Source of the DNA: Thioploca sp.
GTDB taxonomy: Bacteria > Pseudomonadota > Gammaproteobacteria > Beggiatoales > Beggiatoaceae
DNA: 64,000 nt
Direction of reading: 5' to 3'
Assembly: GCA_012032555.1 (NCBI GenBank)
Contig: JAAUSR010000014.1
Coordinates: 1 to 64,000 of the forward strand
The notes below the pieces were generated by a model, which worked only from the letters and a program-made list of their open reading frames with translations, made no database searches and was not told where the DNA came from. A program made the position numbers and the translations under genes. Shown piece after piece: positions 5,683 to 64,000 of the stretch (the stretch's first letter is position 1; each line of letters starts with the position of its first letter).

Positions 5683-5693
5683 AAATTCAGTAA

Positions 5694-5832
5694 TCAGTTA
5701 TCAATTATCAGTAAATAGTTATCATGTCTATTAGCTATTAAGCAATTATTATCAACACCGGTCTGTTAATTATCCAATCATTCAGTTTAAGTTATCATTA
5801 ATAACGGATAACGGTTCACTGATAACTGATTA
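5694..5832. repeat. TTATCAGT-rich inverted repeat element (copy A)
   Basis: The spacer between gspF and gspD starts with repeated AGTTATCA-type words and ends with their complements (ACGGTTCACTGATAACTGAT). The two arms can fold into one long imperfect hairpin. A similarly built element lies between bamA and skp at 52941-53085. Confidence 0.6.
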
Positions 5833-7035: not shown

Positions 7036-7074
7036 AATATTTCCTCTCTAACAAACGCGAATCCATTTTTCTCT

Positions 7075-8538
7075 TTAGGTTGCTCTGGTAACCCGAACAA
7101 TTTCTTCTGGTGTTGTAATTCCTTGATAAAGTTTGTTTAACGCATCTTGTCGCAAGGTTCGCAATCCTTCTTGAATCGCTTGCTGACGAATTGCATTGGC
7201 ATCACCGTTACTATTGATAACATGACGCACTCCGTCTGAAGCAATTAGGAATTCATATAAGCCTAATCGTCCTCGATAACCGGTATTAGCACAACGTTCA
7301 CAACCCATTCCCCGAACAACTTCCGGTAATTGAAACGAATCAATGCCTAATAAACCGGCTTCTTCTTCAGAAAGCAGTTCTTGTTCCGCGCAATCCAGAC
7401 AAATTTTACGCACTAAACGTTGGGCCATTACTGCAATGATACTGGAACTAAGTAGATAAGTATCGATTCCGATATCTTGCAAGCGGGTAATTGCCCCAGC
7501 AGCATCGTTGGTATGTAAGGTTGAAAAAACTAAGTGACCGGTCAGCGCCGATTCAATGGCAATCTCCGCTGTTTCCCGATCCCGAATTTCACCAATCATA
7601 ATAATATCTGGATCTTGCCGAACAATGGAACGCAATCCTGCGGCAAAAGTCAAGCCAATTTTAGAATTGACATGAATTTGAGTAATCCCTTCAAGTTGAT
7701 ATTCGACCGGATCTTCAATAGTGATAATTTTTTGTTGTCCGGTATTAATTTTCTCTAAGGTAGCATACAAAGTGGTCGTTTTACCACTACCAGTCGGTCC
7801 AGTCACCAGCACAATACCGTGCGGTTGATGAATCGCTTGTGAATAGGGTTTAAGGATATCCTGTGGCATTCCCAGTAGATCAAGACTCACCTTAACATCG
7901 CCGCGATCTAAAATACGCAAGACAATGGATTCTCCATGTAGCCCCGGTAAAGTAGATACCCGCATATCCAGCGATCGTTCCCCCATTTGATATTGAATTC
8001 GCCCATCTTGGGGTAGCCGTTTTTCACCAATATCTAAACGCGCCATCAACTTAACTCGAGAGGAAACCGATGGTTGTACTGATGCTGGTAAATGCTCTAA
8101 GTTGACCATCACGCCATCCACTCGACAACGCACTTTAAGATATTTCTCTTCTGGTTCAAAGTGAATATCGCTGGCGTTTAAGTCTAAAGCGCGTTCCATT
8201 AGATGATTAACAATACGAATAATCGGTGCTTCTGAAGCGAGATCTTTGAGATATTCATTATCCAGTTGGTCGATATTTTTATTATCACCGGTACCATCCA
8301 AGTCTGGAGCTAATTTTGCCCGCCAATGCTTTATTAAGCGCTCCACCTGCTCCGGTTTGCCAATTTCAAAGCGAATCTGTGAACCGAGTAAAAAACGAAT
8401 TTTGGCGCGATCTTCAATATCGGGTAAAGCAGTATAGATCAAACAAGGATCGTCTGGAAATTGTTCAACGGGGACAATATTCTTTTTTGATAGAAATTGG
8501 GTAAACAAGGGTAAACTTAGCGTATTCATCGTTATCAT
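7075..8538 (-). CDS. gspE: Type II secretion ATPase GspE
   Basis: 487 residues. An N-terminal GspE domain leads to the ATPase core with Walker A GPTGSGKTTT near residue 248, an Asp box, Walker B IIMIGEIRD near 313, and a His box (HTNDAAGAITRL). Zinc-binding pairs CLDC (near 380) and CERC (near 411) are present, the tetracysteine hallmark that separates GspE from PilT. It powers pseudopilus extension from the cytoplasmic face. The start could be the first ATG (8538) or the ATG three codons later (8529); neither has a strong SD. It precedes gspF and follows the gspM-like gene. Confidence 0.92.
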   Translation of the reverse strand: MITMNTLSLPLFTQFLSKKNIVPVEQFPDDPCLIYTALPDIEDRAKIRFLLGSQIRFEIGKPEQVERLIKHWRAKLAPDLDGTGDNKNIDQLDNEYLKDLASEAPIIRIVNHLMERALDLNASDIHFEPEEKYLKVRCRVDGVMVNLEHLPASVQPSVSSRVKLMARLDIGEKRLPQDGRIQYQMGERSLDMRVSTLPGLHGESIVLRILDRGDVKVSLDLLGMPQDILKPYSQAIHQPHGIVLVTGPTGSGKTTTLYATLEKINTGQQKIITIEDPVEYQLEGITQIHVNSKIGLTFAAGLRSIVRQDPDIIMIGEIRDRETAEIAIESALTGHLVFSTLHTNDAAGAITRLQDIGIDTYLLSSSIIAVMAQRLVRKICLDCAEQELLSEEEAGLLGIDSFQLPEVVRGMGCERCANTGYRGRLGLYEFLIASDGVRHVINSNGDANAIRQQAIQEGLRTLRQDALNKLYQGITTPEEIVRVTRAT

Positions 8539-8565
8539 TCACGAATTAGTGTTTCGATAAAATAA

Positions 8566-9399
8566 TTACTCATGATTCACTTCTTCTGGTGGAATCGCTT
8601 CTTCTGGTGGTATTGAAGATAAATCCTCTTCTTCTAACAACATCACTTCTTCTGGTGATAGAGATAAATCTTCTGACTGAGACGGAATCTCGGGTGCCGG
8701 AGGCGTATTGATGAGTTGTTCCGGCTGTTGAAGTGACGGCGTCGGTAAGTTACTCGGTGGTGCCGGTGACGACGGTTCAGCTTCATTGGGTTGAGGTGGC
8801 GATACTGATTGCTCAGCTGGGTTAGGGGGCGGTGGTATCTCTTCTGGTTTTGATTCAACCGGTGTTGAAATCTGGCTAAAACCAGTTACTTTAATGGTAC
8901 CATTAAGTCTGTCCCGGTAACTGCGAACCTCTAAACTCACCACTTTAAGATTTTCTTTAGCCTTTTCTAAAGCTTGTAAAAATGCCATGAGGGTTTCCGA
9001 GTTAGCTTCAAATTGCATCGACTGAATAACCAATACCCATTCGCCAGAGTTAAAAGCAGTATCTGGCGGTTCCAAAGTTCTAAAGGTAATGCCCGCTTCT
9101 TGAGCCAGTTGTTTGATTAAACCTTGCATTCGCGCACCCACTAATTCACGGGTACGACCGGCTAATAACCCGACTTCAATTTTTTCTTGTTCTTGCTTAG
9201 CCTTTTTATTTTCAGCTTCCCAATATTCTGCTCGTTCACCTAAATCGATTTCACGAACAATCTGTTCAGATAAATTTTCAATAGCGGCTCGATAGTCACG
9301 ATAAATTTTCAGAACGGTTGGTATCAATTGAAACGGTAACATATAGCCCATAAAAATCACGAGTGCAATTCGTAAAAGGCGTTTTTCTTTAGTTGTCAC
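8566..9399 (-). CDS. GspM-like type II secretion protein (PilO fold)
   Basis: 277 residues. There is one N-terminal membrane helix (IALVIFMGYMLPFQLIP), then a coiled coil (about 40-75) and an alpha/beta PilO/GspM-like domain (about 90-180). The tail, about 90 residues long, is very rich in Pro, Glu and Ser and ends in repeated EEAIPPEEV-like acidic runs. The gene order (immediately before gspE and gspF) and the architecture fit the GspMb type of assembly platform protein, which sits under the secretin with GspL. Sequence similarity is too weak for certainty. The long acidic tail is unusual and could be periplasmic. Confidence 0.6.
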   Translation of the reverse strand: MTTKEKRLLRIALVIFMGYMLPFQLIPTVLKIYRDYRAAIENLSEQIVREIDLGERAEYWEAENKKAKQEQEKIEVGLLAGRTRELVGARMQGLIKQLAQEAGITFRTLEPPDTAFNSGEWVLVIQSMQFEANSETLMAFLQALEKAKENLKVVSLEVRSYRDRLNGTIKVTGFSQISTPVESKPEEIPPPPNPAEQSVSPPQPNEAEPSSPAPPSNLPTPSLQQPEQLINTPPAPEIPSQSEDLSLSPEEVMLLEEEDLSSIPPEEAIPPEEVNHE

Positions 9400-31876: not shown

Positions 31877-34800
31877 ATGTTACCAGAACATATTGAAATT
31901 TGCTTAATTCAACCACGACGAACTCCGCAACCGATTACCATTGAAGCGCTTCGATTCCGTAACTGCCGACGAAATTTCAAGCAAATCCCTAAACTGGCTA
32001 CTTTCCTGGTCAGTTTAACTTTGATATTGCCTTTTGCGGCACGGGCAGCGACCAATTGCGAGACAGTGGGTGAAATTACCACAGTAGAATGTGAAGCCCT
32101 TATTAATCTTTATAATGGTACCGATGGAGAACATTGGTATGACAGTCCTGGAAATAATTGGAATGTGACAAATGAACCCTGTAGTTGGGTAGGAGTTACT
32201 TGTGTTGGTGGACATGTAACTGAAATTAATAGAGAACGGCAAGGGTTATTGGGTACACTTCCCCATTTAGGTGCGTTAAGTTATTTGCGGGTGCTTGATT
32301 TAAGTGGTTGTGGGGGGTGGTTCGACGAATTGAATCAAGACGATAACCTGAATCGAATAAAAGGCTCTATTCTAGGATCACGTTTGCCAACCAGTTTACA
32401 GACACTCGATCTATCTTGCACTAACTTAGAAGGAACTATCTCTGATTTTAGATCCTTAACGGGATTGCAGGTTCTTAATCTATCTTCTAACTTATTTAGA
32501 GGGCCAATTCCAAACCCCAGGTTACACTTCTCAACGAGTTTACGGACTCTCGATCTGTCTTCCAATTCTGGACTAGAACTAGGAATTATTCCTAACTTTA
32601 AAGATTTCACAAATTTACAAGAACTTATATTGTTTTCTACTAATAGAACTGGCCCGATTGAGGTTTCATCTTTTCCAACGAGTTTGCGGGTTCTTTATCT
32701 AGATAACAACCAATTACAGGGAAATATCCCCGATTTCAGACCATTAACTCGGTTGCAGAATCTTAATCTGTCTAATAATCAATTTAGCGGGATCCTTTCA
32801 AGTTCAAATTTTCCAACCAGCTTGCAGACCCTCGATCTCTCTTCTAATTCTGGACTGGAATCTCAAAGTATTCCTAATTTTAATAGATTTAGTCAGTTAC
32901 AAACACTTAATTTGAGTAATACTCGACGAACCGGATCGGTTCAAGGAACTGATTTTCCAAGTCGTTTGCAATGGCTTTCTCTGTCTAGCAACCAATTAAA
33001 CGAAATTGCAGATGATTTCAGTCAACTGAATAGTTTGTCTCATCTCGAGTTAAACTCCAACCAATTTAGTGGTTCTCTTCCCAGTTTACCCTTGCCAACC
33101 AGTTTGCAAACGCTTTATCTAGCGGGTAATCAATTAACCGGGCTCGAACCGGATTTTAGTCAACTGAAGAGTTTGTCTTATCTCGATTTAAGCCAAAACC
33201 AATTCAGTGGTTCTTTTCCCGGCTTACCCTTACCAACCAGTTTGCAAACGCTTTATCTAGCGGGCAACAAAATAGATAAACTTGAAAATGATTTCAGTAA
33301 ACTCAGTAGATTGTCTTATCTTAACCTCAGCCAAAACCAACTCAGCGGCTCTCTTGCTAGCCCCCCTTTTCCAATCGGTTTAGGAGAGCTTTATCTGGCT
33401 GGTAATCAATTAACCGAAATTGACAAAAATTTTAATCGCTTAAATAAGTTGTCTTATCTAGATTTAAGCCGTAATCAACTCACTGGCCCCCTGTTTGGAT
33501 CCAATTTACCAACTAGTTTAGGAAGGCTTTATCTGAATGACAATCAGTTAACCGGAATTGCCGCTTTTAGTCAATTGACCCGTCTAGAGTATCTCGAACT
33601 TAGCCGTAACCAAATCACTGGTTTGCTGTTAGGTGCCGCTTTTCCAACGAGTTTGCAAGAGCTTTATCTGAATGACAATCAATTAACTAAAATTGAAAAC
33701 GATTTCAATAGATTAACTAAGTTAAACTATCTCAACGTCAGTCACAATCAGCTCAGCGGTTCTCTTTCCAAAGCAACCTTTCCGACCAGTTTGGAAACGC
33801 TTCTTCTGAATAACAATCAACTAACGGGTAAGCTACCCAATCTCAGTCGCTTGATTCAGTTACAGTATCTTAACTTAAGTCAAAATCAATTAAAAGGCAT
33901 TCTGCCTGATTTTAGTCAACTCACCCAGTTGAGAACGCTTGATTTATCTCGCAACCAATTCAGTGGAGCTATTCCATCCACATTAACTAGCTTACAGCAA
34001 CTGGGGAGCTTGGATTTAGGTTACAACTATTTAACAACTCCTTATCCAGAAGTACTTAAATTTCTTGAAGCACCTGGAAATAAAGACCCTGATTGGTCCT
34101 ATACTCAGGGTCCACAACTCCAATGTCCTAATGGAGGAAGAGTCAATATTCAACCTTCACCGGTTGATTTTGGAACGGAGGTGATTAACAGTCGCACAGC
34201 AGCAACCGTTTATATGCGATCTCAAAATTGTGATGATATTCAAATCCAAACCATTGAGTTTGGTGGCAGCAATATTGACGAATTTAAGATAACTAGTAGA
34301 AGTTGCAATTCGGGAGGATGGCAGGGAGATAGCTACTCCTCCTGCCAATTTACCATTGAGTTTTCACCCACCGCCGCCGGTATCAAAGAAGGGGCTTCTG
34401 TTAACCTGACCTTCACCGTTCCTAATATGCCAATTTTTTCCATGCCGCTGCAGGCAATAGCAGTTGAATCGGGTGAACCCCAAATTGAGATGTCTTCAAA
34501 CTCATATGATTTTGGAGAAGTTACGCTGGATAACTCCTCAGAATTACAACCATTTACTGTCACTAATACCGGTAACATTAATCTGAAATTTGAGAAGATT
34601 GAGTTAACTGGCACTGCCACCAAAGACTTTAAAGACTATATTTATAGCTGCTTTACTGAAAAAGTATTACTACCTTCAAAACAGTGCTTCATTAATACCC
34701 AGTTCTTTCCCACTTTATCAGCCGGTGTTAAGGAAGCGAAATTGAGCATCACTTCTAATGCCGCTGAGAAGCCGGTAGAAATCCCATTGAATGGAACCGC

Positions 34801-37800
34801 TCTTGAGCCAGAAATGTGTTCAGAAGATAAAATTACGATTGCATCAGTCGGTAATGGTTCATGGAATTCCCCCGCAACTTGGACAGAAAACAAAATTCCC
34901 CTGGAAGAAGATGTCGTGCAAATTAACCAAGGTCACTCGGTCGTCGGTATACCTTATGCCGCAGTGAAAACACTTTGTATTGAAGCCGGTGGCATTTTGA
35001 CCAGTGCCGATAATCAAGGAACGTATTTGATTATTCAAGCTAGTGATTATATTGAAAATAAAGGTAAAATCGTCGGTCAAGATGGCACTCATGAATTAGC
35101 AGCGACGACTTTATGTACCACAGATTACTGGTCTGCAATTGGTAAAGAAAGTTGTGCTCAACCGGGCGCGGCTGTTTATCTATCAGTCGGTGATTGGTCA
35201 GAAACGCGGTTGCGAAATGAAGGTACCATTACTGCGGGTCGCGGTGGGAATGGCAAACAATATAGTGCCTATGGTGGTATTGTTGGAATATATGGCGGTG
35301 GTCTAACTAACACTGCCATTAATGGCAAAAGGGGTACTATTTTAAGTGGTAGCGGCGGTCATATAACTAGTAAACTGACCGGGCAAGCTGGTAATGGCGG
35401 TGATCTCTCCATGTTAGCTAAAGATTACTTACATCATGATGAAGTCATGATTTTTGCTGGGGATGGTGGTAATTGCAATCCAGAAGCGACTGAATCGCAA
35501 TGGGGTGGTAAGGGTGGCGATATCCGCTTCAATGCACCTTTCCGCGTTGATCTAGTGGGAACATTCGGCGCCGGCACCGGTGGAATTCACTGCCAACCAC
35601 CAGAAAACAATGGCCAAGATGGTCAGTTTATCAGTGATCCCGGGATTATTTCTTTGTCAGGTGCTAACACAAAAATTAGCGGTGGTGATATTGCCATTTA
35701 TGGTGGGAAGGACTGGGTATTGGATCTCAGTAATCTCAATGGATTCAAAGGCCCAATTATAACGGCTACCGGCAATATCACTCTCGCGGTGGGTGAAGGC
35801 GAAAAGAGTGCTATTAATCTGAGAGGTAGTAAAGGTCTGCTCTTACAAGCCGCCGGTCAAGTCAATCTCTTTTCTGATCGTATTTTACTGGATGACAAGG
35901 TAGAACTATCAGATATCATTAAAGCGAACAAAATTGTGGTCGGTCCAAGCCAGATTTTGCGCGGTGTGTCTTTGGCAGGGTCCGGTAAATTTTTTGGCAA
36001 GCCTGGAGCCATTTTGCCAATTCGTCTAATTCTCTCTAATAGTGGTCCAGAAAAAGATAGCTATTTTTTAGAAGTGCAAGACTTAGCGGGCTGGAGTTTG
36101 AGCGAATTATCCTCTCCTATTGAAATTTATGGGTTAAACAATGTTTTATTGAACCTGAGTGTTCAGTTACCGACTACCGGTGGTGAAATGAATCTCGTCA
36201 AGGTAACAGCGACTTCGCAAATTGATCCCAAGGTGAAAGCGGTTGCTGAAATACAAATCATCGTGGCCAAACCCAATACCAATGCTGGATCTATCCTGGT
36301 TCCCAAGGAAGTGCCGATCGTTGTTAGCAATGGGGATATGACTACTTCTCCACCGACTACAACTAGCACCATTGAAAATAATACAACCATTCCTCCAATC
36401 ACCGAAGTAACCCCGGTCGATATTGTCCAAGATAGAACGCCTTTTGATGAAGAATTACCACCGACTAGTAAAGAAAATATCACCCTCCCACCCATCGAGA
36501 GTGAAATAGATAATATTGCCTTAGCAGAAATAAGTGCGATTCCTACCACGGTGATTACTTCGGCGTTACCACCCATTCCCAATTGCCCACTGACTGGCAT
36601 TATCGATTGGATGTGTGATAATCACGGACAAGTGATGATCGATGCGACTCTTGAAAGCAATGCTAATGTGGCCGGTGGTGAATTGGCTGGAATGATTAAT
36701 AATCAAGGAATTATCTCCAATGTGACTATTCAACCTGGAACAGAGGTTCATAGCGGTCAATTGACTGGCTACATTAATAACCAAGGTCTTTTAGCTGATT
36801 TTAATTTTGTAGGCGCCTTCGTTAATAATGGTATCTTATCTGGCACGATCACTAACAATACACAAGTAGGTGGTGTCTTCAAAGATGTCCACTTAGCAGC
36901 TAATACCCAGATAACTGGTGGTTATTTGCAAGGTGATATTTTAGGTGATGTGAATGCCCCAGCACATTTGGCAAAGCTTACTGTCAAAGCCGGTAGTCAT
37001 CTATCCAATGTCATTCTCGGTGAAGATGTAAAATTAGCCCCAGGCGTAACCTTCCAAGATGTCCAACTCGTAGCACCTTTGTCCTTCACTGCGGGTAACT
37101 TACAAGGTAATGTTACCGGTGTTAATTTCACCAACGATTTGATGTTCAAAGATATACACCTTGCTGCTCATAGTCAATTAAACGGTGTCCAATTGCAAGG
37201 TAATATTTTGGGTGATATTAATGCGCCAGCGTTATTGGAAAACGTCGAAATCAAAGCCGGCAGTTACCTGACCGGGGTGATACTGGGTAATGGTGTGAAA
37301 CTAGCTGAATCAGTTACTTTTGGAGAAGGTGTCCAAATCGCCTCCTCGAATTCTATCGACTCATCTCCATTACCAGCTCTTGGTGCGATAGCGACTGATC
37401 ACCAAGGAAAAATTATCAACACGGTGGCCATGTTAACTGGAGGTATTTCAGTCAATGGGGCCCCCTTTGATGCTAAAGTGATTACCAAGCCGTCAGATAC
37501 TGTAAACATTAGTGGCCAAATTAACCCCGATCCAAGACATCTTGGACAACAAGCTGAAATCGTTGTCTTGATTACTTATCAATCATTCAATGCGGCTAAA
37601 AATGAACACTCCCTTGATTTGATGTTAGATGCTCATGGTCAAATTTTACCTTGGGATGGAAATAATGCCCATTTAGCATTTTATCAACGGGTTGTTTTAG
37701 AAGCAAATCAACCGGTAGTGCTCTATCAAGGTTCTGTAGATGTATCGGGTAGTTTAGATATTTCTTTCGGATATCGTTTAGAAAACGGCACTATGGTACA

Positions 37801-37840
37801 AAATGCTCAACCGATTGAAATGACTGTGATTAAGGAATAA
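31877..37840 (+). CDS. Giant secreted LRR / G8 / beta-solenoid surface protein
   Basis: 1987 residues. A long signal peptide (about 59 residues, hydrophobic part LATFLVSLTLILPFAARA) is followed by an LRR cap (HWYDSPGNNW..CSWVGVTC) and about 22 plant-type leucine-rich repeats (110-715; L-x-x-L-x-L-S-x-N-x-L-x-G). Two HYDIN-like choice-of-anchor domains come next (about 758-970), then a G8-like domain (GNGSWNSPATWTENKIPLEEDVV, about 990) and a beta-rich, glycine-rich region to about 1300. A NEW3-like Ig domain (about 1375), a Thr/Pro linker, a C-terminal solenoid of GG-x-L-x-G-x-I-x-N repeats (about 1575-1810) and an end domain (ALGAIATD.. to YRLENGT) complete it. The last parts are shared with the protein at 62084. 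The length and LRRs suggest surface adhesion; this is inference. Confidence 0.85.
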   Translation: MLPEHIEICLIQPRRTPQPITIEALRFRNCRRNFKQIPKLATFLVSLTLILPFAARAATNCETVGEITTVECEALINLYNGTDGEHWYDSPGNNWNVTNEPCSWVGVTCVGGHVTEINRERQGLLGTLPHLGALSYLRVLDLSGCGGWFDELNQDDNLNRIKGSILGSRLPTSLQTLDLSCTNLEGTISDFRSLTGLQVLNLSSNLFRGPIPNPRLHFSTSLRTLDLSSNSGLELGIIPNFKDFTNLQELILFSTNRTGPIEVSSFPTSLRVLYLDNNQLQGNIPDFRPLTRLQNLNLSNNQFSGILSSSNFPTSLQTLDLSSNSGLESQSIPNFNRFSQLQTLNLSNTRRTGSVQGTDFPSRLQWLSLSSNQLNEIADDFSQLNSLSHLELNSNQFSGSLPSLPLPTSLQTLYLAGNQLTGLEPDFSQLKSLSYLDLSQNQFSGSFPGLPLPTSLQTLYLAGNKIDKLENDFSKLSRLSYLNLSQNQLSGSLASPPFPIGLGELYLAGNQLTEIDKNFNRLNKLSYLDLSRNQLTGPLFGSNLPTSLGRLYLNDNQLTGIAAFSQLTRLEYLELSRNQITGLLLGAAFPTSLQELYLNDNQLTKIENDFNRLTKLNYLNVSHNQLSGSLSKATFPTSLETLLLNNNQLTGKLPNLSRLIQLQYLNLSQNQLKGILPDFSQLTQLRTLDLSRNQFSGAIPSTLTSLQQLGSLDLGYNYLTTPYPEVLKFLEAPGNKDPDWSYTQGPQLQCPNGGRVNIQPSPVDFGTEVINSRTAATVYMRSQNCDDIQIQTIEFGGSNIDEFKITSRSCNSGGWQGDSYSSCQFTIEFSPTAAGIKEGASVNLTFTVPNMPIFSMPLQAIAVESGEPQIEMSSNSYDFGEVTLDNSSELQPFTVTNTGNINLKFEKIELTGTATKDFKDYIYSCFTEKVLLPSKQCFINTQFFPTLSAGVKEAKLSITSNAAEKPVEIPLNGTALEPEMCSEDKITIASVGNGSWNSPATWTENKIPLEEDVVQINQGHSVVGIPYAAVKTLCIEAGGILTSADNQGTYLIIQASDYIENKGKIVGQDGTHELAATTLCTTDYWSAIGKESCAQPGAAVYLSVGDWSETRLRNEGTITAGRGGNGKQYSAYGGIVGIYGGGLTNTAINGKRGTILSGSGGHITSKLTGQAGNGGDLSMLAKDYLHHDEVMIFAGDGGNCNPEATESQWGGKGGDIRFNAPFRVDLVGTFGAGTGGIHCQPPENNGQDGQFISDPGIISLSGANTKISGGDIAIYGGKDWVLDLSNLNGFKGPIITATGNITLAVGEGEKSAINLRGSKGLLLQAAGQVNLFSDRILLDDKVELSDIIKANKIVVGPSQILRGVSLAGSGKFFGKPGAILPIRLILSNSGPEKDSYFLEVQDLAGWSLSELSSPIEIYGLNNVLLNLSVQLPTTGGEMNLVKVTATSQIDPKVKAVAEIQIIVAKPNTNAGSILVPKEVPIVVSNGDMTTSPPTTTSTIENNTTIPPITEVTPVDIVQDRTPFDEELPPTSKENITLPPIESEIDNIALAEISAIPTTVITSALPPIPNCPLTGIIDWMCDNHGQVMIDATLESNANVAGGELAGMINNQGIISNVTIQPGTEVHSGQLTGYINNQGLLADFNFVGAFVNNGILSGTITNNTQVGGVFKDVHLAANTQITGGYLQGDILGDVNAPAHLAKLTVKAGSHLSNVILGEDVKLAPGVTFQDVQLVAPLSFTAGNLQGNVTGVNFTNDLMFKDIHLAAHSQLNGVQLQGNILGDINAPALLENVEIKAGSYLTGVILGNGVKLAESVTFGEGVQIASSNSIDSSPLPALGAIATDHQGKIINTVAMLTGGISVNGAPFDAKVITKPSDTVNISGQINPDPRHLGQQAEIVVLITYQSFNAAKNEHSLDLMLDAHGQILPWDGNNAHLAFYQRVVLEANQPVVLYQGSVDVSGSLDISFGYRLENGTMVQNAQPIEMTVIKE

Positions 37841-45106: not shown

Positions 45107-45835
45107 ATGTCAGAACTTACCCCCACTTATCGTCGGGTGTTATTAAAATTGAGTGGTGAATCACTCATGGGTAAAGCCAATTTTGGTATTGAGCCACAAT
45201 TTCTAGCTCACTTTGCGCAGGAAATACAGGCTATAGTGAAATTCGGGGTACAATTAGCGGTAGTGATAGGTGGGGGGAATATCTTTCGCGGTGTAGGTTT
45301 AACCGCCAGTGGTATCGATAGAATCTCTGCGGATTACATGGGTATGTTAGCTACCGTCATCAATGGGTTAGCCATACAAGATGCACTCCAAAAAATAGGT
45401 GTCAATGCTCAAGTAATGTCAGCTATTCAGATGGACACCATTTGTGAAACTTATACCCGGCAACGGGCTATGAGCCATTTAGAAAAGGAAAGTGTCGTGA
45501 TTTTCGTTGCGGGTACCGGTCACCCCTTTTTTACCACCGATTCTGCCGCCAGTTTACGTGCAATTGAAATCGGAGCTCACTTAATGATCAAAGCGACTAA
45601 AGTAGACGGTCTCTACAGCGCTGATCCCCTGCGTGATCCGACTGCACAGCGTTTTACACACTTAACTTATGATGAAGTATTAACTCGTCAGTTAGGTGTC
45701 ATGGACCTGACAGCGGTTATCCTGTGTCGTGATAATCGTATCCCCTTGCGAATACTTGATATGGGAAAAAGTGGGGCTTTGATTCGTGCCATTGCCGGTC
45801 AAGATGAAGGAACGCTGATCAACAGTGAGGAATAA
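45107..45835 (+). CDS. pyrH: Uridylate kinase
   Basis: 242 residues, amino-acid-kinase family UMP kinase. Visible parts: RVLLKLSGESLMG, IGGGNIFRG near 55, ADYMGMLATVINGLAIQDAL near 76, and TTDSAASLRAIEI near 145. It makes UDP from UMP. It begins one base after the tsf stop and is co-transcribed with frr. Confidence 0.96.
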   Translation: MSELTPTYRRVLLKLSGESLMGKANFGIEPQFLAHFAQEIQAIVKFGVQLAVVIGGGNIFRGVGLTASGIDRISADYMGMLATVINGLAIQDALQKIGVNAQVMSAIQMDTICETYTRQRAMSHLEKESVVIFVAGTGHPFFTTDSAASLRAIEIGAHLMIKATKVDGLYSADPLRDPTAQRFTHLTYDEVLTRQLGVMDLTAVILCRDNRIPLRILDMGKSGALIRAIAGQDEGTLINSEE

Positions 45836-45840
45836 AGTAA

Positions 45841-46407
45841 ATGAGTGAAATGCTGGCTTTAATTAAAACTGATGCTAAAGAACGCATGCATAAAAGCATA
45901 GAAGCACTTAAAGCGGAGTTTATCAAAATTCGGACCGGGCGAGCTCACCCTAATTTACTTGATCATATTACCGTACCTTATTACGGTAACCTGGTACCGA
46001 TTAATCAAGTCGCTAATATCACAATTCTAGATATACGTGCTTTAGGCGTGACACCGTGGGAAAAAAACATGGTAAGTATAGTCGAAAAGGCGATTCGCGA
46101 TTCTGATTTAGGACTAAACCCGACTAACCTGGGAAATTTATTACGTGTGCCTTTACCACCGATGACCGAAGAGCGGCGTCGTGAATTAGTTAAAGTTGTA
46201 CGTCACGAGGCTGAAGGTGCCAAAATCGCTATCCGCAATATTCGTCGTGATGCGAATCATGAGTTAAAGAAATTATTAAAAGACAAAGAAATCTCTGAAG
46301 ATAATGAACATCGTGTTCAAGAGGAGATTCAAAAGTTAACCGATCAATTTATCACTCAAGTTGATACGGTTTTGGCAACAAAAGAGGCAGAATTAATGGA
46401 AGTTTAA
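45841..46407 (+). CDS. frr: Ribosome recycling factor
   Basis: 188 residues, standard length. [21 protein letters not shown] near 30, then [34 protein letters not shown] near 105-140. It splits post-termination ribosomes with EF-G. It starts 5 bases after pyrH. Confidence 0.97.
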
Positions 46408-46464
46408 TGGCGAGTATTAACCGGATTGGCATGACTCATTGGAAATTTTAGCACTTCAAACCCT

Positions 46465-47202
46465 ATGACTGACATTCCTTCACGTCTACCACGCCATATT
46501 GCCATTATTATGGATGGTAATGGTCGTTGGGCAAAACAGCGACTTTTGCCTCGTTACGCGGGACATAAGGTTGGGATTGAGACAGTACGCCGAGTGATCC
46601 GGCTTTGTGCTGAACATCACATTGAGGTATTAACCTTATTCGCTTTTAGTAGTGAAAATTGGCGGCGACCTCAACAAGAAGTGAGTTTTCTAATGGACTT
46701 GTTTATTACCGCTTTGCAGCAAGAAGTCAACAATTTACACAAAAATCAAGTCCGGTTACGCATTATTGGTGCCCGTGAAGCTTTTCCGCAGAAATTACAA
46801 ACCCTGATTACGGAAGCAGAAGCTTTAACGGCAACGAACTCGGGTTTAACTTTAATTATTGCGGCCAATTATGGTGGACATTGGGATATTATTCAAGCAA
46901 CTAAAAATCTTGCTGAGCAAGTCAAAGCTGGACAATTGCAACTTCAGGAAATTAATGAAACCCTATTTAGAACGCAACTGTGTTTAGCCGATTTACCGGA
47001 ACCCGATTTATTTATTCGCACCGGTGGCGAACAACGGATTAGTAATTTTTTATTGTGGCAATTGGCTTATACAGAAATGTATTTTACGGATACTTTATGG
47101 CCGGATTTTAATAAAGATCATTTTATTCAAGCGCTAAAATCATTTGCTCAGCGGCAACGGCGGTTTGGTCGCACTGGCGATCAGGTAGAAAAAAATGCTT
47201 AA
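46465..47202 (+). CDS. uppS: Undecaprenyl diphosphate synthase
   Basis: 245 residues, cis-prenyltransferase. HIAIIMDGNGRWAK near 10 with the catalytic Asp, FAFSSENWRRP near 68, and the C-terminal RTGGEQRISNFLLWQLAYTEMYF. It makes the C55 lipid carrier for peptidoglycan. It overlaps cdsA by 8 bases. Confidence 0.97.
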   Translation: MTDIPSRLPRHIAIIMDGNGRWAKQRLLPRYAGHKVGIETVRRVIRLCAEHHIEVLTLFAFSSENWRRPQQEVSFLMDLFITALQQEVNNLHKNQVRLRIIGAREAFPQKLQTLITEAEALTATNSGLTLIIAANYGGHWDIIQATKNLAEQVKAGQLQLQEINETLFRTQLCLADLPEPDLFIRTGGEQRISNFLLWQLAYTEMYFTDTLWPDFNKDHFIQALKSFAQRQRRFGRTGDQVEKNA

Positions 47203-48022
47203 CCAACGAGTTATCACTGCTCTGTTGTTAATTCCACTGGTAATATGGGACATTTTAAATTTTTCTTCGCCGACTTTAGCTTGGTTATTAGCTGTTTTTG
47301 TGGTACTGGCTGCTTGGGAATGGGCCGGTATTTGCGGTTGGCATCAATTAAGCTGGCGTAATAGTTATGCCGTAGTCATGGGCTTAACGTTATTCATGAG
47401 TTATGGAAGTTGGCATTACCCCAAGGTAGGTAATCTTTTATTAATCACGGCTTGTTTATGGTGGTTAATTGCGTTTTATTGGGTACTGAATTATCAACGC
47501 AGTTACGATCAATTACCGACTTCGTCTCTCATTAAAGCCTTGTTAGGCTTTTTTATTTTACTCCCAGGGTGGGCAGCACTGTTGATTTTACATGAACATG
47601 ATCATTATGGTAGGTATTGGGTAGTTTTTTTCTTAGTCTTAATCTGGGCCGCAGATAGTGGTGCCTATTTTACCGGTAAACGGTGGGGAAAAATCAAGTT
47701 AGCCGATAAAGTGAGTCCAGGCAAAACTTGGGAAGGTGTTATCGGTGCTTTGTTGATGAGTTTTTTAGTTTCAGCGAGTTACGCTATATTAAACGCCATG
47801 TCACTCATGACAGTCTTATTTTTTATGTTATTATGTTCAATAACGGTAATGGCTTCTATCTTAGGTGATTTATTGGAAAGCGTTTTTAAACGCCAAATGG
47901 GAATTAAAGATAGTAGTCAAATTTTACCCGGTCATGGTGGTGTATTGGATCGGATAGATAGTCTTACTGCAGCGGCACCAATTTTTGTCATGGGTCTCAT
48001 CTTACTAGGAAATCGGCTTTGA
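47195..48022 (+). CDS. cdsA: Phosphatidate cytidylyltransferase
   Basis: 275 residues, with about seven hydrophobic helices and the CDP-alcohol signature near the C-terminus (SILGDLLESVFKRQMGIKDSS). It makes CDP-diacylglycerol for phospholipids in the inner membrane. It overlaps uppS by 8 bases and its stop overlaps the dxr start (TTGA). Confidence 0.95.
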   Translation: MLNQRVITALLLIPLVIWDILNFSSPTLAWLLAVFVVLAAWEWAGICGWHQLSWRNSYAVVMGLTLFMSYGSWHYPKVGNLLLITACLWWLIAFYWVLNYQRSYDQLPTSSLIKALLGFFILLPGWAALLILHEHDHYGRYWVVFFLVLIWAADSGAYFTGKRWGKIKLADKVSPGKTWEGVIGALLMSFLVSASYAILNAMSLMTVLFFMLLCSITVMASILGDLLESVFKRQMGIKDSSQILPGHGGVLDRIDSLTAAAPIFVMGLILLGNRL

Positions 48023-49260
48023 AAGGCATTACGATACTGGGTGCAACTGGCACAATTGGTTTAAATACGCTTGAGGTCATTAAGCAACATCAAGATAAAT
48101 TTAAAGTGATTGCCTTAACGGCTAATCGAGATGTGGATGGTCTGAGTGCTCTGTGTTTAAAATGGTTACCACGCTATGCCGTAATGGCGGATGCTCAAGC
48201 TGCAGAACAATTAGAACAGCGTTTAAAACCGGCCCAATTGCCGATACAAGTTTTAAGTGGCAAAGCCGGTTTAATCAAAGTAGCCAGCTTACCAGAAATC
48301 GAGATAGTGATGGCAGCCATTGTGGGTGGCGCGGGTTTAACATCTACCTTAGCAGCTGCTGAAGCGGGGAAAAGAATTCTATTGGCTAATAAAGAAGCCT
48401 TGGTTATGTCAGGGCAATTGTTGCTGGCCACTGTATTTAAACATGACGCTGAATTATTACCCATTGATAGCGAACATAATGCGGTTTTCCAATGTATACC
48501 CCCATCGCATTTTAACAGCGCTAAAGGGTATGATCATTCTCCGGCTCGAATTAAAACGCCAGCCGCTTTTGTAGACAGTGGTATTAGTCGAATTTTACTA
48601 ACTGCCTCTGGTGGGCCTTTTCGGCATTACTCTGATGAGCAAATGCAAACGGTAACCCCTGAGCAAGCCTGCGCACATCCCAATTGGAAAATGGGTCCTA
48701 AAATCTCAGTTGATTCAGCAACGATGATGAATAAAGGTTTGGAAATCATTGAAGCTTGTTGGTTATTTTCAGTTCAACCCCATCATGTTGAAGTATTATT
48801 GCATCCACAAAGTGTCATCCATTCTTTAGTAGAATATATCGATGGTTCAGTACTGGCGCAACTGGGCAACCCGGACATGCGTACTCCCATTGCACATGCC
48901 CTCGGTTGGCCGGAGCGCATTAGTTCGGGTGTCAAACGTTTAAATCTGGCCGAAATTGGTCAATTACATTTTGAATCGGTTGATTTTAAAAAATTTCCTT
49001 GTTTGCAATTGGCTTATGACGCCATGTTAGCTGGTGGGACCACCACAACGATTTTAAATGCCGCTAATGAAATTGCTGTCCAGGCTTTTTTACAAAAACG
49101 TTTGCGCTTTACTGATATTCCTCGGGTAATTGAAGTCACTTTATCTCACTTAACCGGTCGTGTAGTAACCCAGTTAGATTTAATCTTAGAGGAAGATACT
49201 CGGGCAAGGGAATTCGCTACTGAAATAGTTAACCAGTATTCAACCACTAATTATCATTAA
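48019..49260 (+). CDS. dxr: 1-deoxy-D-xylulose 5-phosphate reductoisomerase
   Basis: 413 residues. NADPH-binding GATGTIGLNTLEV at residue 8, LANKEALVMSG near 123, catalytic LPIDSEHNAVFQ near 150, and KMGPKISVDSATMMNKGLE near 232. It makes MEP in the isoprenoid pathway. Start codon is TTG, overlapping the cdsA stop. A 10- to 20-residue insertion around 168-185 is slightly longer than usual. Confidence 0.95.
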   Translation: MKGITILGATGTIGLNTLEVIKQHQDKFKVIALTANRDVDGLSALCLKWLPRYAVMADAQAAEQLEQRLKPAQLPIQVLSGKAGLIKVASLPEIEIVMAAIVGGAGLTSTLAAAEAGKRILLANKEALVMSGQLLLATVFKHDAELLPIDSEHNAVFQCIPPSHFNSAKGYDHSPARIKTPAAFVDSGISRILLTASGGPFRHYSDEQMQTVTPEQACAHPNWKMGPKISVDSATMMNKGLEIIEACWLFSVQPHHVEVLLHPQSVIHSLVEYIDGSVLAQLGNPDMRTPIAHALGWPERISSGVKRLNLAEIGQLHFESVDFKKFPCLQLAYDAMLAGGTTTTILNAANEIAVQAFLQKRLRFTDIPRVIEVTLSHLTGRVVTQLDLILEEDTRAREFATEIVNQYSTTNYH

Positions 49261-49263
49261 AAA

Positions 49264-50595
49264 ATGACATTTTTATATTACTTAACTGCTTTTATAGTTG
49301 TTATTGGCATCTTAGTGACCGTACATGAATTTGGTCATTACTGGGTTGCCCGGCGTTTAGGAGTGAAAATTATAACTTTTTCAATTGGTTTTGGTAAACC
49401 AATTTGGTCACATCGCTGGGGCAAAGATCAGACTGAATTTGTTATTGCCGCGATTCCACTGGGCGGTTATGTCAAAATGCTGGATGAACATGAGGGCGAA
49501 GTGGCCACCCATGAATTGTCACGTGCCTTCAATCGCCAACCGCTTAAGGTACGATCAGCTGTGGTCGTGGCTGGCCCTTTATTTAATTTCTTATTTGCTA
49601 TTGTCGCTTACACGCTCATGTATATGATGGGTGTGGTGGAGATGACAGCCATAGTAGGAGAAGTTACCCCGCAAAGTTTAGCTGACGAAGCCGGTTTTCG
49701 GCGTGGTGACCAAATCATCGCTGTCAATGAACAACCAACTCAGAGTTGGGAAACGGTAATACAAGCCACCCTGCATCAACTGTTAGATGAACAACCGGTG
49801 ATAACCTATTCAGTTCAAGCGATGCAAAGTGCTCGGCGTGAGTTAGTCGTTAACTTACAGCGTTTATCTATTGACGATATTGCTGAAGGACAGTTGTTCA
49901 ATAAACTGGGGATCCAACCTTCTCGTCCACCTTGGCCCGCTGTTATGGGTACGATTTTACCCCATAGTGCCGCTGAGCAAGCTGGATTACAACTGGGTGA
50001 CAAAATTATCGCCTTGGATAAGCAACCGATTAAAGATTGGCAAGCTTGGGCTTTATATGTCAAACAACGTCCCGGACAGAAAATTCAAGCTGAAATTGAA
50101 CGTCATGGCCAATCATTGGAATTAACTTTGATCCCGCAGACGGTAAATGGAGAAGGTAAAATGGGTGTTTATGCACCTTACATAGTGACAGAACGTTACC
50201 CACTGTGGACCGCTTTTATTAAAGGAGTAGAAAAGACTTGGGAAATTGGCACCTTAACCTTACAACTCATGGTTAAAATGTTAACCTTGCAAATTTCCCA
50301 TGACCATATTAGTGGTCCCATTAGTATTGCGCAATTTGCCGGACAATCTGCTCAACTGGGTTTCAATGCGTTTTTATCTTTTCTTGGCTTAGTCAGTGTC
50401 AGCTTAGGTGTCATTAATTTGCTACCGATTCCTTTATTAGACGGTGGTCATTTATTATTATATTTTATTGAATGGATTAAAGGTAATCCCGTGACCGAAA
50501 GAACTGAATATTTATTACAACGTCTAGGTTTGACATTATTGCTAAGTTTAATGGGATTAGCTTTATTCAATGATCTCGGGCGGTTGCTCAATTAA
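49264..50595 (+). CDS. rseP: Site-2 protease RseP
   Basis: 443 residues. Zinc-binding HEFGH near residue 22, two PDZ domains (about 120-205 and 215-290), LDGGHLL near 390, and four membrane helices. It cuts RseA in the sigma-E envelope stress response. It lies three bases after dxr and before bamA as in E. coli. Confidence 0.96.
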   Translation: MTFLYYLTAFIVVIGILVTVHEFGHYWVARRLGVKIITFSIGFGKPIWSHRWGKDQTEFVIAAIPLGGYVKMLDEHEGEVATHELSRAFNRQPLKVRSAVVVAGPLFNFLFAIVAYTLMYMMGVVEMTAIVGEVTPQSLADEAGFRRGDQIIAVNEQPTQSWETVIQATLHQLLDEQPVITYSVQAMQSARRELVVNLQRLSIDDIAEGQLFNKLGIQPSRPPWPAVMGTILPHSAAEQAGLQLGDKIIALDKQPIKDWQAWALYVKQRPGQKIQAEIERHGQSLELTLIPQTVNGEGKMGVYAPYIVTERYPLWTAFIKGVEKTWEIGTLTLQLMVKMLTLQISHDHISGPISIAQFAGQSAQLGFNAFLSFLGLVSVSLGVINLLPIPLLDGGHLLLYFIEWIKGNPVTERTEYLLQRLGLTLLLSLMGLALFNDLGRLLN

Positions 50596-50621
50596 TAATC
50601 ATAACAATAATACCAACTCAT

Positions 50622-52940
50622 ATGTGGATTCAGCGATATAGTACCGGTTATGCACTAAAATATACCCTGAGACTGCTTGTCTTCAGCAGTATTTTGTTGA
50701 TCAATTTTTCAGCTGATGCGTTTGAAACTTTCCTAATTAAAGATATTCGATTAGACGGATTACGACGCATTTCACCCGGTACGGTATTTAATTATTTACC
50801 GATCAAAGTCGGTGACCGCTTGGATCAAAATAAAGCGAGTAAAGCTATTGCTGCCTTATTTAAAACGGGCTTATTTAAGGACATTCGTTTAGAACAGGAA
50901 GGTAATGTATTAGTGGTTAAATTAGACGAACGTCCGGCGATTGCTAACATTACTTTTACCGGTAATAAAGAAATTGATACGAACAGTTTAATTCAGTCAC
51001 TTAAAAACATTGGTTTTGCCGAAGGACGAGTGTTCAATCGTTCCTTACTAGAAAAAGTAGAATTGGAACTACAACGTCAATATTTTAATCTCGGTAAATA
51101 TGCTGTCCGAATAAAATCAACTGTTACGCCCCTCAACCGTAACCGAGTAGGAATCCAATTGGATATCTCAGAAGGTACCGTCGCACGAATTCAGGCTATT
51201 ACTTTTGTCGGTAACCGGGCATTCAGTGATAAAATCCTGCGTGATGAAATGAAATTAAGTACTGGCGGATTATTTTCATTCTTAACTAAAGATAACCAAT
51301 ATTCTAAGCAAAAATTAGCAGCTGATTTAGAAACACTGCGTTCTTACTATTTAGATCGAGGTTATCTTCAATTCAACCTGGATTCTACTCAAGTCACGAT
51401 TAGCGAAGACAAAAAATCCATCTATATTACCATTAACTTAACCGAAGGCAATAAGTACACTGTATCTGAAATCAAATTAGAAGGTAATTCCATTGTACCC
51501 GTAGCCGAATTGAAAGACAAAATGACCATTAAAACCGGACAAGTTTTCTCACGCAAACAAGTCACGGCGAGTACTGAGGCCATTTTAGAACGAATTGGTG
51601 ATGAAGGCTATGCTTTCGCTAATATTAACCCGGTACCAGAAATCAATTCAAAAAACCAAACCGTCATGTTAAGATTCTTTATTGATCCGGGTAAACGGGT
51701 TTACGTCCGCCGAATCAACTTTAAAGGCAATACCAAAACGCGTGATGAAGTACTCCGCCGCGAAATGCGACAAATGGAAAATGGTTGGATATCAACTAAA
51801 AATGTCAAACGTTCCTTAACCCGCTTAGAACGACTGAATTACTTTGAAGAAGTCAAAGTTGACACCACCGTCGTACCAGATACCACTGATCAAGTCGATT
51901 TGACTTACTCTGTCGTTGAAAGACCATCGGGTAATTTATTAGCCGGTGTGGGTTATTCTCAAACACAGGGTATCTTATTTAACGCCAGTATTATGCAAGA
52001 AAACTTTTTAGGTTCTGGTAAACAATTTGGAGCAACCTTCAACAACAGCAAAGTCAATACCATTTATCGGTTTTCCTACTTTAATCCCTATACTACCATA
52101 GATGAAGTGAGTCGAGGGTTTAACCTATTTTACCGAACCATGGATGCTGAAGAGGCTAACCTAAGCCGCTATACCACGGATGTTTATGGCGCCGGTCTAA
52201 CCTATGGATTGCCTATCAGTGAATTTAACTATATTAAAGTGGGAACCGATTTTGACAATACCTATCTGAAACCAACTACGGCTAGTGCCAATGAAGTATT
52301 TGATTTCATTGAAGCCAATGGAGACCGATATAACTCGTATCGCCTGACCACTAGCTGGGCACGAGATACACGTAACCATCCACTCTTTCCGGAGCGGGGG
52401 TTATTACAATCTTTTAGCGCTGAGGTTGCTTTACCTTTTAGTGACCTGAGTTATTATAAACTGGGTTATCAACATCACTGGTTATACCCGCTGGCTAAAA
52501 ATTATACGCTATTATTAAAAGGACAAATGGCCTATGGGGATGGCTATGGAGAGAATGATGAGTTACCTTTCTTTGAAAACTACACGGCCGGTGGTCCGCG
52601 GACAGTAAGAGGATTTCGTGAAAACACGCTTGGACCACTTGATTCTAAACAACGACCTTTCGGTGGTAATTTAAAAGTCATTGGTAATGCGGAAGTTATT
52701 TTACCGGTTCCTTTCACTAAAAATATCCACTCATTTCGCGTGTCTAGTTTTGTCGATGTTGGTAATGTTTATGGAGTAGATGAAGATTTTACGGTATCAG
52801 AACTTCGTTACTCGGCAGGATTATCTGCTATTTGGTTATCTCCTTTAGGTGTATTGAGTTTTAGTTTAGCTAAACCACTGAATAGTAAAGAAGGTGACCA
52901 AATTCAAATGTTTCAATTTACTATTGGTACCACTTTTTAG
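50622..52940 (+). CDS. bamA: Outer-membrane assembly factor BamA
   Basis: 772 residues. A signal segment, five POTRA domains (about 30-430), then a 16-stranded Omp85 barrel with VRGFRENTLGP, and a C-terminal Phe. It is the central protein of the BAM complex that folds outer-membrane barrels. The TTATCAGT element follows it, then skp. Confidence 0.97.
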   Translation: MWIQRYSTGYALKYTLRLLVFSSILLINFSADAFETFLIKDIRLDGLRRISPGTVFNYLPIKVGDRLDQNKASKAIAALFKTGLFKDIRLEQEGNVLVVKLDERPAIANITFTGNKEIDTNSLIQSLKNIGFAEGRVFNRSLLEKVELELQRQYFNLGKYAVRIKSTVTPLNRNRVGIQLDISEGTVARIQAITFVGNRAFSDKILRDEMKLSTGGLFSFLTKDNQYSKQKLAADLETLRSYYLDRGYLQFNLDSTQVTISEDKKSIYITINLTEGNKYTVSEIKLEGNSIVPVAELKDKMTIKTGQVFSRKQVTASTEAILERIGDEGYAFANINPVPEINSKNQTVMLRFFIDPGKRVYVRRINFKGNTKTRDEVLRREMRQMENGWISTKNVKRSLTRLERLNYFEEVKVDTTVVPDTTDQVDLTYSVVERPSGNLLAGVGYSQTQGILFNASIMQENFLGSGKQFGATFNNSKVNTIYRFSYFNPYTTIDEVSRGFNLFYRTMDAEEANLSRYTTDVYGAGLTYGLPISEFNYIKVGTDFDNTYLKPTTASANEVFDFIEANGDRYNSYRLTTSWARDTRNHPLFPERGLLQSFSAEVALPFSDLSYYKLGYQHHWLYPLAKNYTLLLKGQMAYGDGYGENDELPFFENYTAGGPRTVRGFRENTLGPLDSKQRPFGGNLKVIGNAEVILPVPFTKNIHSFRVSSFVDVGNVYGVDEDFTVSELRYSAGLSAIWLSPLGVLSFSLAKPLNSKEGDQIQMFQFTIGTTF

Positions 52941-62083: not shown

Positions 62084-64000
62084 TTAATTAGTTATAGCAA
62101 TTTTAATCACTTTATCACTGACAGTGACGGTACCATCCTCCAAACGGTAACCTAGATGAATTTCAATAATGCCGGCTGGAGCGGCTAATTTACCTTGATA
62201 GATTTCCACTGTTTGAATGGGTTCCAAAATATCTTCTTTGAAAGCCAGTAAACTGGTAAAGTTGCCATCCCAAGGTAATACCTGATTGTTAGCGTCTAAT
62301 CTATAGAGAGCTGGCTTACGGTTAGGCGAATCAGCGGACGTATAAGCGACATACACAATAAAACCGGCTAATTGCCCAACTTGTTTGGGATCAACGCAGA
62401 TAGTAGCACGTATCTTCACGGGTTCTGAAGAATTGACAGTGAGTTCTTGCTGGAAAGTCTCTGAAGTAGCGGCAGCACCACCGGCGAGTTGCGCACTCGT
62501 TGCCACGATTTTTCCTTGCGAATCGGTAGCAATGGCGCCAAGTTGGGGAAGTTCAGTGTTGCAAGTCGTAATAACTTCCGTATTCTGAGACATCGTCGCG
62601 TGTTTACTGTCAGTAGCTGTGAGATCGACCTGTCTCGGATCCTCAGCAAAATTGACAAATTGCACCCCGTCACCAAAAGTCACTTGATCTTCAAACTGGA
62701 CATTCTTGCCAATTTTTACATGGGAAAGGTGACTATTAGCTTTAACCGTTAGCTCTTCTAGTAAAGCTGGTGCTGTTGCTTCGCCGACAATTTCTCCCTG
62801 AACATAGCCACCAGTGATGTGGGTATCGGCTGCTAAGTGGACATTGATAAAAGTGCCACCGACTTGACTGTTATTGGTAACGATTCCAGCTAGAGTTCCG
62901 CCATCGACTTGAGCACCCACGAAAGTGAAATCCGCCAGCGTACCTTTATTGACAATATAACCCGTCAGCCTGCCTCCGGTTAACAGCGTATCCGGTTGAA
63001 GGGTTACTTGAGAGACAATTCCTTGGTTGTTAATCACACCGGCTAATTGACCACCGGCTACTTTCGCGTCGGTTCCCAGTGCGGCGTTGGTTAAGGTATG
63101 TCCATTATTTTTACACAGGTAATCAATTTCACCCGTCGGTGGACAAGAAGTTAACCCTGAAATGTTAGAAATTACAGTCGTTTGAGTTACTTCAGGTGGC
63201 GGAACAGCGGGGAATGGCGGAACAACGGGTTCATCTGCTTTTGCCACTGTCGGGGTAGAGATTTCCTGATCGACTATTGGAACCGTCACTGGTGGCGATG
63301 TAGGCATTATCTCTATGGGTTGAGAATCACTCTCGGTATTCTTTCCTGCAACCGTGATGGTGATTGGCAAAACTTTCGTCATGTTAGGATCGTTTTGCGA
63401 AGTTGCTGTGACTGCCAAGGTGTTAGTTGCCCCGGATTCGGTTGATAAAGCAATTTCGAGTGCTACTTTCTTGGTTTCTGATATTTTCACTGGCAGCGGC
63501 ATAGTTGGCAAGCCGTTGACAATTAAATTAGCTGGATTATCAGTCACTTTCAGTTCATAGGTATCCGCATTGGAACCGTTGTTAGTCAGTTCTAATTCCA
63601 GCGGTAAAATAGCGCCGGGTTCGCCGGAAAGTTGTGATGAGGTGGTGGTGAAAGCAAAATCATGTGAAGTAGTTCCCACTGTCAGCAGCATTTCTTCGAT
63701 AACACTCGGATCAACTTGAGAAGTTGCGGTGATAGTCATAACGCTCTTAGCACCCGATTCCGCTGGTAATGTCAGATTTAGGTTTAAATGGGCACTTTCT
63801 AATTTATTCAGTGAAACCGAAGTCGGTAACAGTTCTAAAGCCCAGTTCGCTGAATTACTCGTCTTTAAAGTATAAGTATCTATCTCATTACCTTTATTAG
63901 TTAGGGTTAACGGAATCGATAAAGTCGAACCGGGTTCGCCAAACCATTGATTAGTCTCCGTGGTTAGAGCCACCGCATGTATCGTTGCTTGAGCGACAGC
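62084..64000 (-). CDS. Second surface protein sharing the C-terminal solenoid module (5' end outside window)
   Basis: The frame is open to the window edge (at least 638 residues) and the start is not in the window; the GTG at 63973 is only an internal in-frame codon. Two NEW3-like Ig domains occur (GEPGSTLSIPLTLTNKGNE near 12 and GEPGAILPLELELTNNGS near 120 from that GTG). A Thr/Pro linker follows, then a GG-x-L-x-G-x-I-x-N solenoid (about 275-440) and an end domain with LGAIATDSQGKIVATSAQL and YRLEDGTV. The parts after the Ig domains correspond closely to the last 600 residues of the giant protein at 31877. Presumably exported; a signal peptide would lie outside. Confidence 0.75.
   Translation of the reverse strand, partial: AVAQATIHAVALTTETNQWFGEPGSTLSIPLTLTNKGNEIDTYTLKTSNSANWALELLPTSVSLNKLESAHLNLNLTLPAESGAKSVMTITATSQVDPSVIEEMLLTVGTTSHDFAFTTTSSQLSGEPGAILPLELELTNNGSNADTYELKVTDNPANLIVNGLPTMPLPVKISETKKVALEIALSTESGATNTLAVTATSQNDPNMTKVLPITITVAGKNTESDSQPIEIMPTSPPVTVPIVDQEISTPTVAKADEPVVPPFPAVPPPEVTQTTVISNISGLTSCPPTGEIDYLCKNNGHTLTNAALGTDAKVAGGQLAGVINNQGIVSQVTLQPDTLLTGGRLTGYIVNKGTLADFTFVGAQVDGGTLAGIVTNNSQVGGTFINVHLAADTHITGGYVQGEIVGEATAPALLEELTVKANSHLSHVKIGKNVQFEDQVTFGDGVQFVNFAEDPRQVDLTATDSKHATMSQNTEVITTCNTELPQLGAIATDSQGKIVATSAQLAGGAAATSETFQQELTVNSSEPVKIRATICVDPKQVGQLAGFIVYVAYTSADSPNRKPALYRLDANNQVLPWDGNFTSLLAFKEDILEPIQTVEIYQGKLAAPAGIIEIHLGYRLEDGTVTVSDKVIKIAITN

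Follow-up and report, generated by a model that had tools for sequence, protein, structure and literature searches.

Several described systems mark exported bacterial proteins at or near their C-terminal end. The C-terminal domain (CTD) of type IX secretion system (T9SS) cargo is a C-terminal Ig-like beta-sandwich (PMC4804311), and the T9SS itself is reported for Bacteroidota (PMC10202324). In GlyGly-CTERM, basic residues accompany a motif and a membrane helix (PMC3237569). Cargo of the type II secretion system (T2SS), by comparison, has been described as lacking shared features (PMC10128026). No paper in the literature collection searched connects a C-terminal domain with type II secretion in Beggiatoaceae.

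The window analyzed here is a stretch of 64,000 nucleotides from the genome of a Thioploca sp. (G000; 5.55 Mb in 198 contigs). It contains parts or all of two genes for very large exported proteins, referred to by their start positions as 31877 and 62084, which end in a common tail. Iterative HMM searching of loci taken from the same genome divided this tail into S, comprising a cap and a solenoid, and T, the terminal domain. The features of the two genes are as follows:

62084 to 64000, minus strand: C-terminal part of the 62084 gene, 638 aa of a 1,960-aa exported LRR/choice-of-anchor D protein
Ending at C42:67966, outside the window (L021:2088-7967): the 62084 gene at full length, 1,960 aa with a signal peptide
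63377 to 63955, minus strand: a pair of NEW3/Ig_VWA7-like Ig domains that precede the Thr/Pro linker (Pfam PF23619, E 1e-14; blastp)
62612 to 63184, minus strand: S domain of the 62084 protein, a two-cysteine cap (CPPTGEIDYLC) and a predicted GGxLxGxIxN parallel beta-helix of about five coils
62087 to 62518, minus strand: T domain of the 62084 protein, a predicted Ig-like beta-sandwich whose final strand runs to the protein C-terminus (HMM, AlphaFold2)
31877 to 37840, plus strand: the 31877 protein, a 1,987-aa exported LRR/choice-of-anchor D protein and full-length paralogue of the 62084 protein
35981 to 36271, plus strand: Ig-like domain preceding the Thr/Pro linker of 31877 (blastp)
36545 to 37381, plus strand: S domain of the 31877 protein, containing a duplicated stretch of solenoid coils
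37403 to 37837, plus strand: T domain of the 31877 protein, the copy modelled at pLDDT 94

The initial annotation, made from the window alone, proposed that these two proteins share a C-terminal tail, and the similarity is indeed far beyond chance, with blastp E-values of 4e-69 and 7e-64 and 46% identity across the last ~365-420 residues. The series that it described, running from Ig-like domain(s) through a Thr/Pro linker, a CxxTGxID cap, and a GGxLxGxIxN solenoid to a terminal domain, is found in the same order in both. What it took for a protein at 62084 to 64000 lies on the minus strand and is merely the C-terminal third of a longer gene, which extends 3,966 bp beyond the window edge on contig C42. 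Because the window edge cuts this ORF, the N-terminal parts of the two proteins were called unrelated. The full-length proteins are instead paralogues throughout, aligning at 44% identity over 1,088 columns (E 0) and at 39% over residues 55-604, with LRRs and choice-of-anchor D domains common to both. Unrelated N-terminal parts are nevertheless found genome-wide, where T proteins fall into 21 cargo clusters. Elsewhere in the window, positions 45107 to 52940 hold an ordinary pyrH-frr-uppS-cdsA-dxr-rseP-bamA cluster.

The tail had also been thought to act as one module; S and T are also found apart, and each can be repeated. HMM searches of the loci from the window's genome place T in 35 ORFs and S in 25, jointly or separately, counts that take in the 62084 gene twice (window copy and L021). 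S is repeated within 31877, L036, and L037, and up to three tandem copies of T are present per protein.

In AlphaFold2 models of 12 tails, S forms a beta-helix (pLDDT mostly >95), as anticipated for the solenoid, and a disordered linker connects it to a beta-sandwich. Both cap cysteines of S are invariant across the 12 tails. The S model aligns to known beta-helices, including 5dns (Z 10.0) and phage tailspikes (Z 8.8). Hexapep is weakly matched by 6 of 17 S members (best 1.5e-6), and the S copy of 62084 matches no Pfam family at E 0.01. T alone, about 140 aa, is modelled as an Ig-like beta-sandwich with pLDDT 94.3. Both folds are predicted with confidence. The structural neighbours of T form a long, flat list of Ig-like chains at Z 8-9 without an outlier, and therefore no function is read from fold matches. 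Searches of T against Pfam, NCBIfam, and PDB sequences gave nothing convincing; a weak 29-residue match to ETV6 fusions among the PDB sequences (E >= 0.09) was dismissed as chance. A membrane helix, a basic tail, and a conserved cleavage motif are all absent from T sequences. By its sequence, T is an undescribed domain of 140 residues that none of the family libraries searched contains.

T occurs across the Beggiatoaceae and almost nowhere else. It is present in 36 of 37 Beggiatoaceae genomes with 2-57 matches each (51-55 in the window's genome), the lone exception being 59% complete, and in 0 of 21 genomes of other families in the same genome set. Among 365 genomes of a 369-genome class sample, one credible T genome, G252, lies outside the family; three of the 24 genomes in G252's own family (f98) have T. 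In a 299-genome phylum sample T is found in none besides the window's genome. A match in G213 (E 5e-4), with four TAA inside, was taken as chance. Genomes reached through BamA add Ca. Parabeggiatoa, Thiomargarita, and two Thiotrichaceae MAGs as carriers, and T is absent from a Methyloprofundus and another gammaproteobacterial MAG reached in the same way. A related-locus search with a single tail protein as query found no relative. S occurs in 31 of the 37 Beggiatoaceae genomes and in no outsider; compared with T it is therefore less universal and dispensable. The DUF2202-T proteins of Beggiatoaceae (L187, L188) and of the outlier G252 (L141) are close relatives with 47% identity, which suggests transfer or shared descent.

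T is found predominantly at the extreme C-terminus. It ends five residues or fewer from the stop codon in 67 of 74 T ORFs and in 22 of 24 ORFs of short loci from further genomes, a set that overlaps partly with the 74; these counts are not independent trials because T copies are related by descent. ORFs with two or three T copies whose 3' end is covered always have one at the C-terminus or ~25 residues or less from it. Whole T genes also stand in tandem arrays, of subtilases at L191:2113-6605 (G028) and of CAP-type proteins at L190:1418-5803 (G007).

The cargo of T is diverse and includes LRR/choice-of-anchor D, cadherin/tandem-95, Calx-beta, Big_1, CAP, BNR/sortilin-like, VWA/lectin, and DUF2202 proteins, subtilases, and an ExeM-family nuclease (E 2.7e-190). 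T is C-terminal in 17 of the 21 cargo clusters, and small proteins composed of one recognised domain plus T (DUF2202-T, CAP-T) exist. A minority of copies are internal or N-terminal (L036, L037, L038/L170, L135, L142 of G252, and L144), and the extreme C-terminal position is therefore not absolute. In the protein at L038:1262-2959, T lies between a signal peptide and a matrixin-like metalloprotease (HEFGHAIGLRHEH); this N-terminal T is perhaps a pro-domain.

T proteins appear to be exported. A signal-peptide rule passes 20 of 21 T ORFs from genomes outside the genus, but for the genus itself, represented by two genomes, only 34 of 55; the rule is lenient, passing 74 of 158 background ORFs, and therefore supports export rather than measuring it. 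Read by eye, some of the misses in the genus have an evident signal peptide overlooked by the rule; in most of the others the gene is frame-broken, and its upstream part continues in a different frame or ahead of one stop. The evidence strongly supports a C-terminal domain common to many exported proteins. Occurrence of the tail in cytosolic proteins, named beforehand as evidence against a surface role, was seen only as apparent gene debris at L040. There only positions 25-137 of T follow an Rpn-like start, and the candidate was rejected as a cytosolic T protein. The truncated T at L040:7462-8128, whose start resembles an Rpn-family nuclease by eye, adjoins an adhesin-like frame and is probably a recombination scar.

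Many T genes are interrupted, either by a change of frame or by one stop, among them L023, L024, L025, L026, L037, L041, L046, L047, L053, and L059, as well as L155, L162, L169, and L171 in the one-contig genome of a congener (G001). These breaks may reflect decay, phase variation, or sequencing error. In two paralogues, L023 (near position 6283, plus strand) and L024 (minus strand, around position 4060 of the reverse complement), the frame shifts at one and the same motif (AACCAAATTTGGGG). The likeliest explanation is a break inherited from a common ancestor; no classic slippery site was recognised there, and programmed frameshifting stays conceivable.

Dozens of unrelated secreted proteins finish with T, which gives it the look of a tag that sorts them for export or for display at the surface. 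That T is a lineage-specific C-terminal sorting or export domain of some kind is the favoured reading, held tentatively as quite possible but short of probable. The sorting or anchoring tail initially proposed fares accordingly: the extreme C-terminal T on diverse cargo is what such a tail would be expected to look like, but the tail is two domains. In the proposed mechanism, T proteins would cross via Sec using an ordinary N-terminal signal peptide, as their sequences suggest. T would then fold in the periplasm as an independent Ig-like beta-sandwich, a fold predicted with high confidence, its last strand finishing on the final residue of the protein. Once folded, it could serve as a common handle that passes unrelated cargo across or onto the outer membrane. 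In this view the S beta-helix would not be the signal but a rigid, optional spacer that separates T from its cargo. The carrier put forward as most plausible, though tentatively, is a divergent T2SS encoded at 3403-9399 of the window:

3403 to 5682, minus strand: GspD of the divergent T2SS, the window-type secretin (TIGR02517, 381 bits against a cut-off of 351)
5830 to 7035, minus strand: GspF of the divergent T2SS
7075 to 8538, minus strand: GspE of the divergent T2SS
8566 to 9399, minus strand: GspM (XpsM-like) of the divergent T2SS

These genes do not adjoin either T gene and lie far from both. Beggiatoaceae have several secretin classes; against TIGR02517, window-type GspD scores ~338-408 bits and canonical GspD ~560-600 bits. 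A window-type match was defined as at least 42% identity and at least 420 bits to the window protein, and other class members score at most 281 bits. Window-type GspD occurs throughout Beggiatoaceae if two genomes are included: G005, in which two contigs each hold part of it, and G035, which is incomplete. Outside the family it is found only in f98, in nine of 24 genomes: G252 and G702 have both T and the secretin, and seven genomes have the secretin without T. G694, a 64% complete member of f98, has T without window-type GspD. The canonical T2SS was dropped as the carrier because G003, G023, and G027 keep T with no canonical GspD match.

The link to the local T2SS suggested by the initial annotation therefore gains a family-level co-distribution of T with window-type GspD, but the secretin also occurs without T, and descent confounds the comparison. 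As both are nearly universal in Beggiatoaceae, their co-distribution has little independent power. The link is compatible with these data and interesting, yet not established, because descent explains most of it. Export of T proteins by the divergent T2SS is accordingly rated doubtful. It is likewise unlikely, on present evidence, that T is the universal C-terminal recognition domain of a divergent, lineage-restricted T2SS, with dozens of unrelated proteins routed by one folded tag. If true, the T2SS reading would matter precisely because no shared features have been ascribed to T2SS cargo, and T would be the T2SS counterpart of the type IX CTD. With T and one divergent secretin nearly confined to one family, the question can be tested in culturable Beggiatoa. 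Apart from any T2SS link, T flags up to tens of proteins in each genome of large sulfur bacteria as exported.

Three other explanations bear on the same observations. T could be a surface-retention domain, with cargo leaving by any route and T binding outer-membrane polysaccharide, sheath, or slime. Many T cargos are adhesin-like (LRR, cadherin, lectin, Big_1), tandem copies would fit avidity, and the Ig-like neighbours of T include a Wzt carbohydrate-binding domain (Z 8.5-8.7) and the biofilm scaffold RbmA (Z 8.1-8.2). These matches are middling, however, and since antibodies and T-cell receptors match alike, they show no function. Binding also requires no exact C-terminal position, and enzyme-like cargo (CAP, subtilase) bears T as well. 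Retention at the surface is an unlikely, if reasonable, account. Large repeat-rich surface proteins are often shuffled out of Ig-like blocks, and T could be an ordinary extracellular block of this type, spread by tail duplication, with its C-terminal position inherited and no role in sorting or anchoring. The internal and N-terminal copies agree with such an origin, as does the largest cargo cluster, which holds 48 of the 76 proteins as one linked group. Against it stand the extreme C-terminal T of 17 cargo clusters, small DUF2202-T and CAP-T proteins among them, and the retention of T in nearly all Beggiatoaceae genomes, even those with two copies. An ordinary Ig-like block is given a low probability.

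It is very improbable that T is a divergent form of one of the C-terminal sorting families already described, for example GlyGly-CTERM or the type IX CTD. The T9SS CTD is likewise a C-terminal Ig-like beta-sandwich (PMC4804311), and the one T protein of the ExeM family falls in a group whose NCBIfam models include exonuc_ExeM-GG. Yet when 38 T copies were scanned against NCBIfam with E-values as high as 5 allowed, no CTD model (TIGR04183, TIGR04131) and no GlyGly-CTERM model appeared. T sequences have none of the GlyGly-CTERM features, namely its motif, membrane helix, and basic residues (PMC3237569), and end in a beta-strand without a helix or basic cluster. The lineage of T is also gammaproteobacterial, whereas the T9SS is reported for Bacteroidota (PMC10202324).

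Set beside the known systems, S resembles hexapeptide, pentapeptide, and other beta-helix repeats in being a predicted parallel beta-helix with weak Hexapep matches in some members, but differs from hexapeptide and pentapeptide repeats in its GGxLxGxIxN units behind a two-cysteine cap. T proteins resemble type II secretion substrates in their N-terminal Sec/Tat signal peptide, found in 20 of 21 ORFs outside the genus by the lenient rule with its background of 74 in 158. GlyGly-CTERM/rhombosortase shares with T the arrangement of a homology domain at the C-terminus of numerous exported proteins, some of them T2SS cargo, and an ExeM-family nuclease is among the cargo of both; GlyGly-CTERM is a short motif with a membrane helix and basic cluster (PMC3237569), whereas T is predicted to be a soluble folded domain. 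As predicted for T, the type IX CTD (Por_Secre_tail, for example the RgpB CTD) folds into an Ig-like beta-sandwich, and like T it occupies the extreme C-terminus of many Sec-exported proteins that are otherwise unrelated but belong to one lineage (PMC4804311). T differs in its length of about 140 aa, its lack of a match to the NCBIfam CTD models, and its occurrence in Gammaproteobacteria; the likeness is one of kind, not of sequence. T is judged most likely to be a C-terminal sorting domain that functions in the manner of the type IX CTD without being one.
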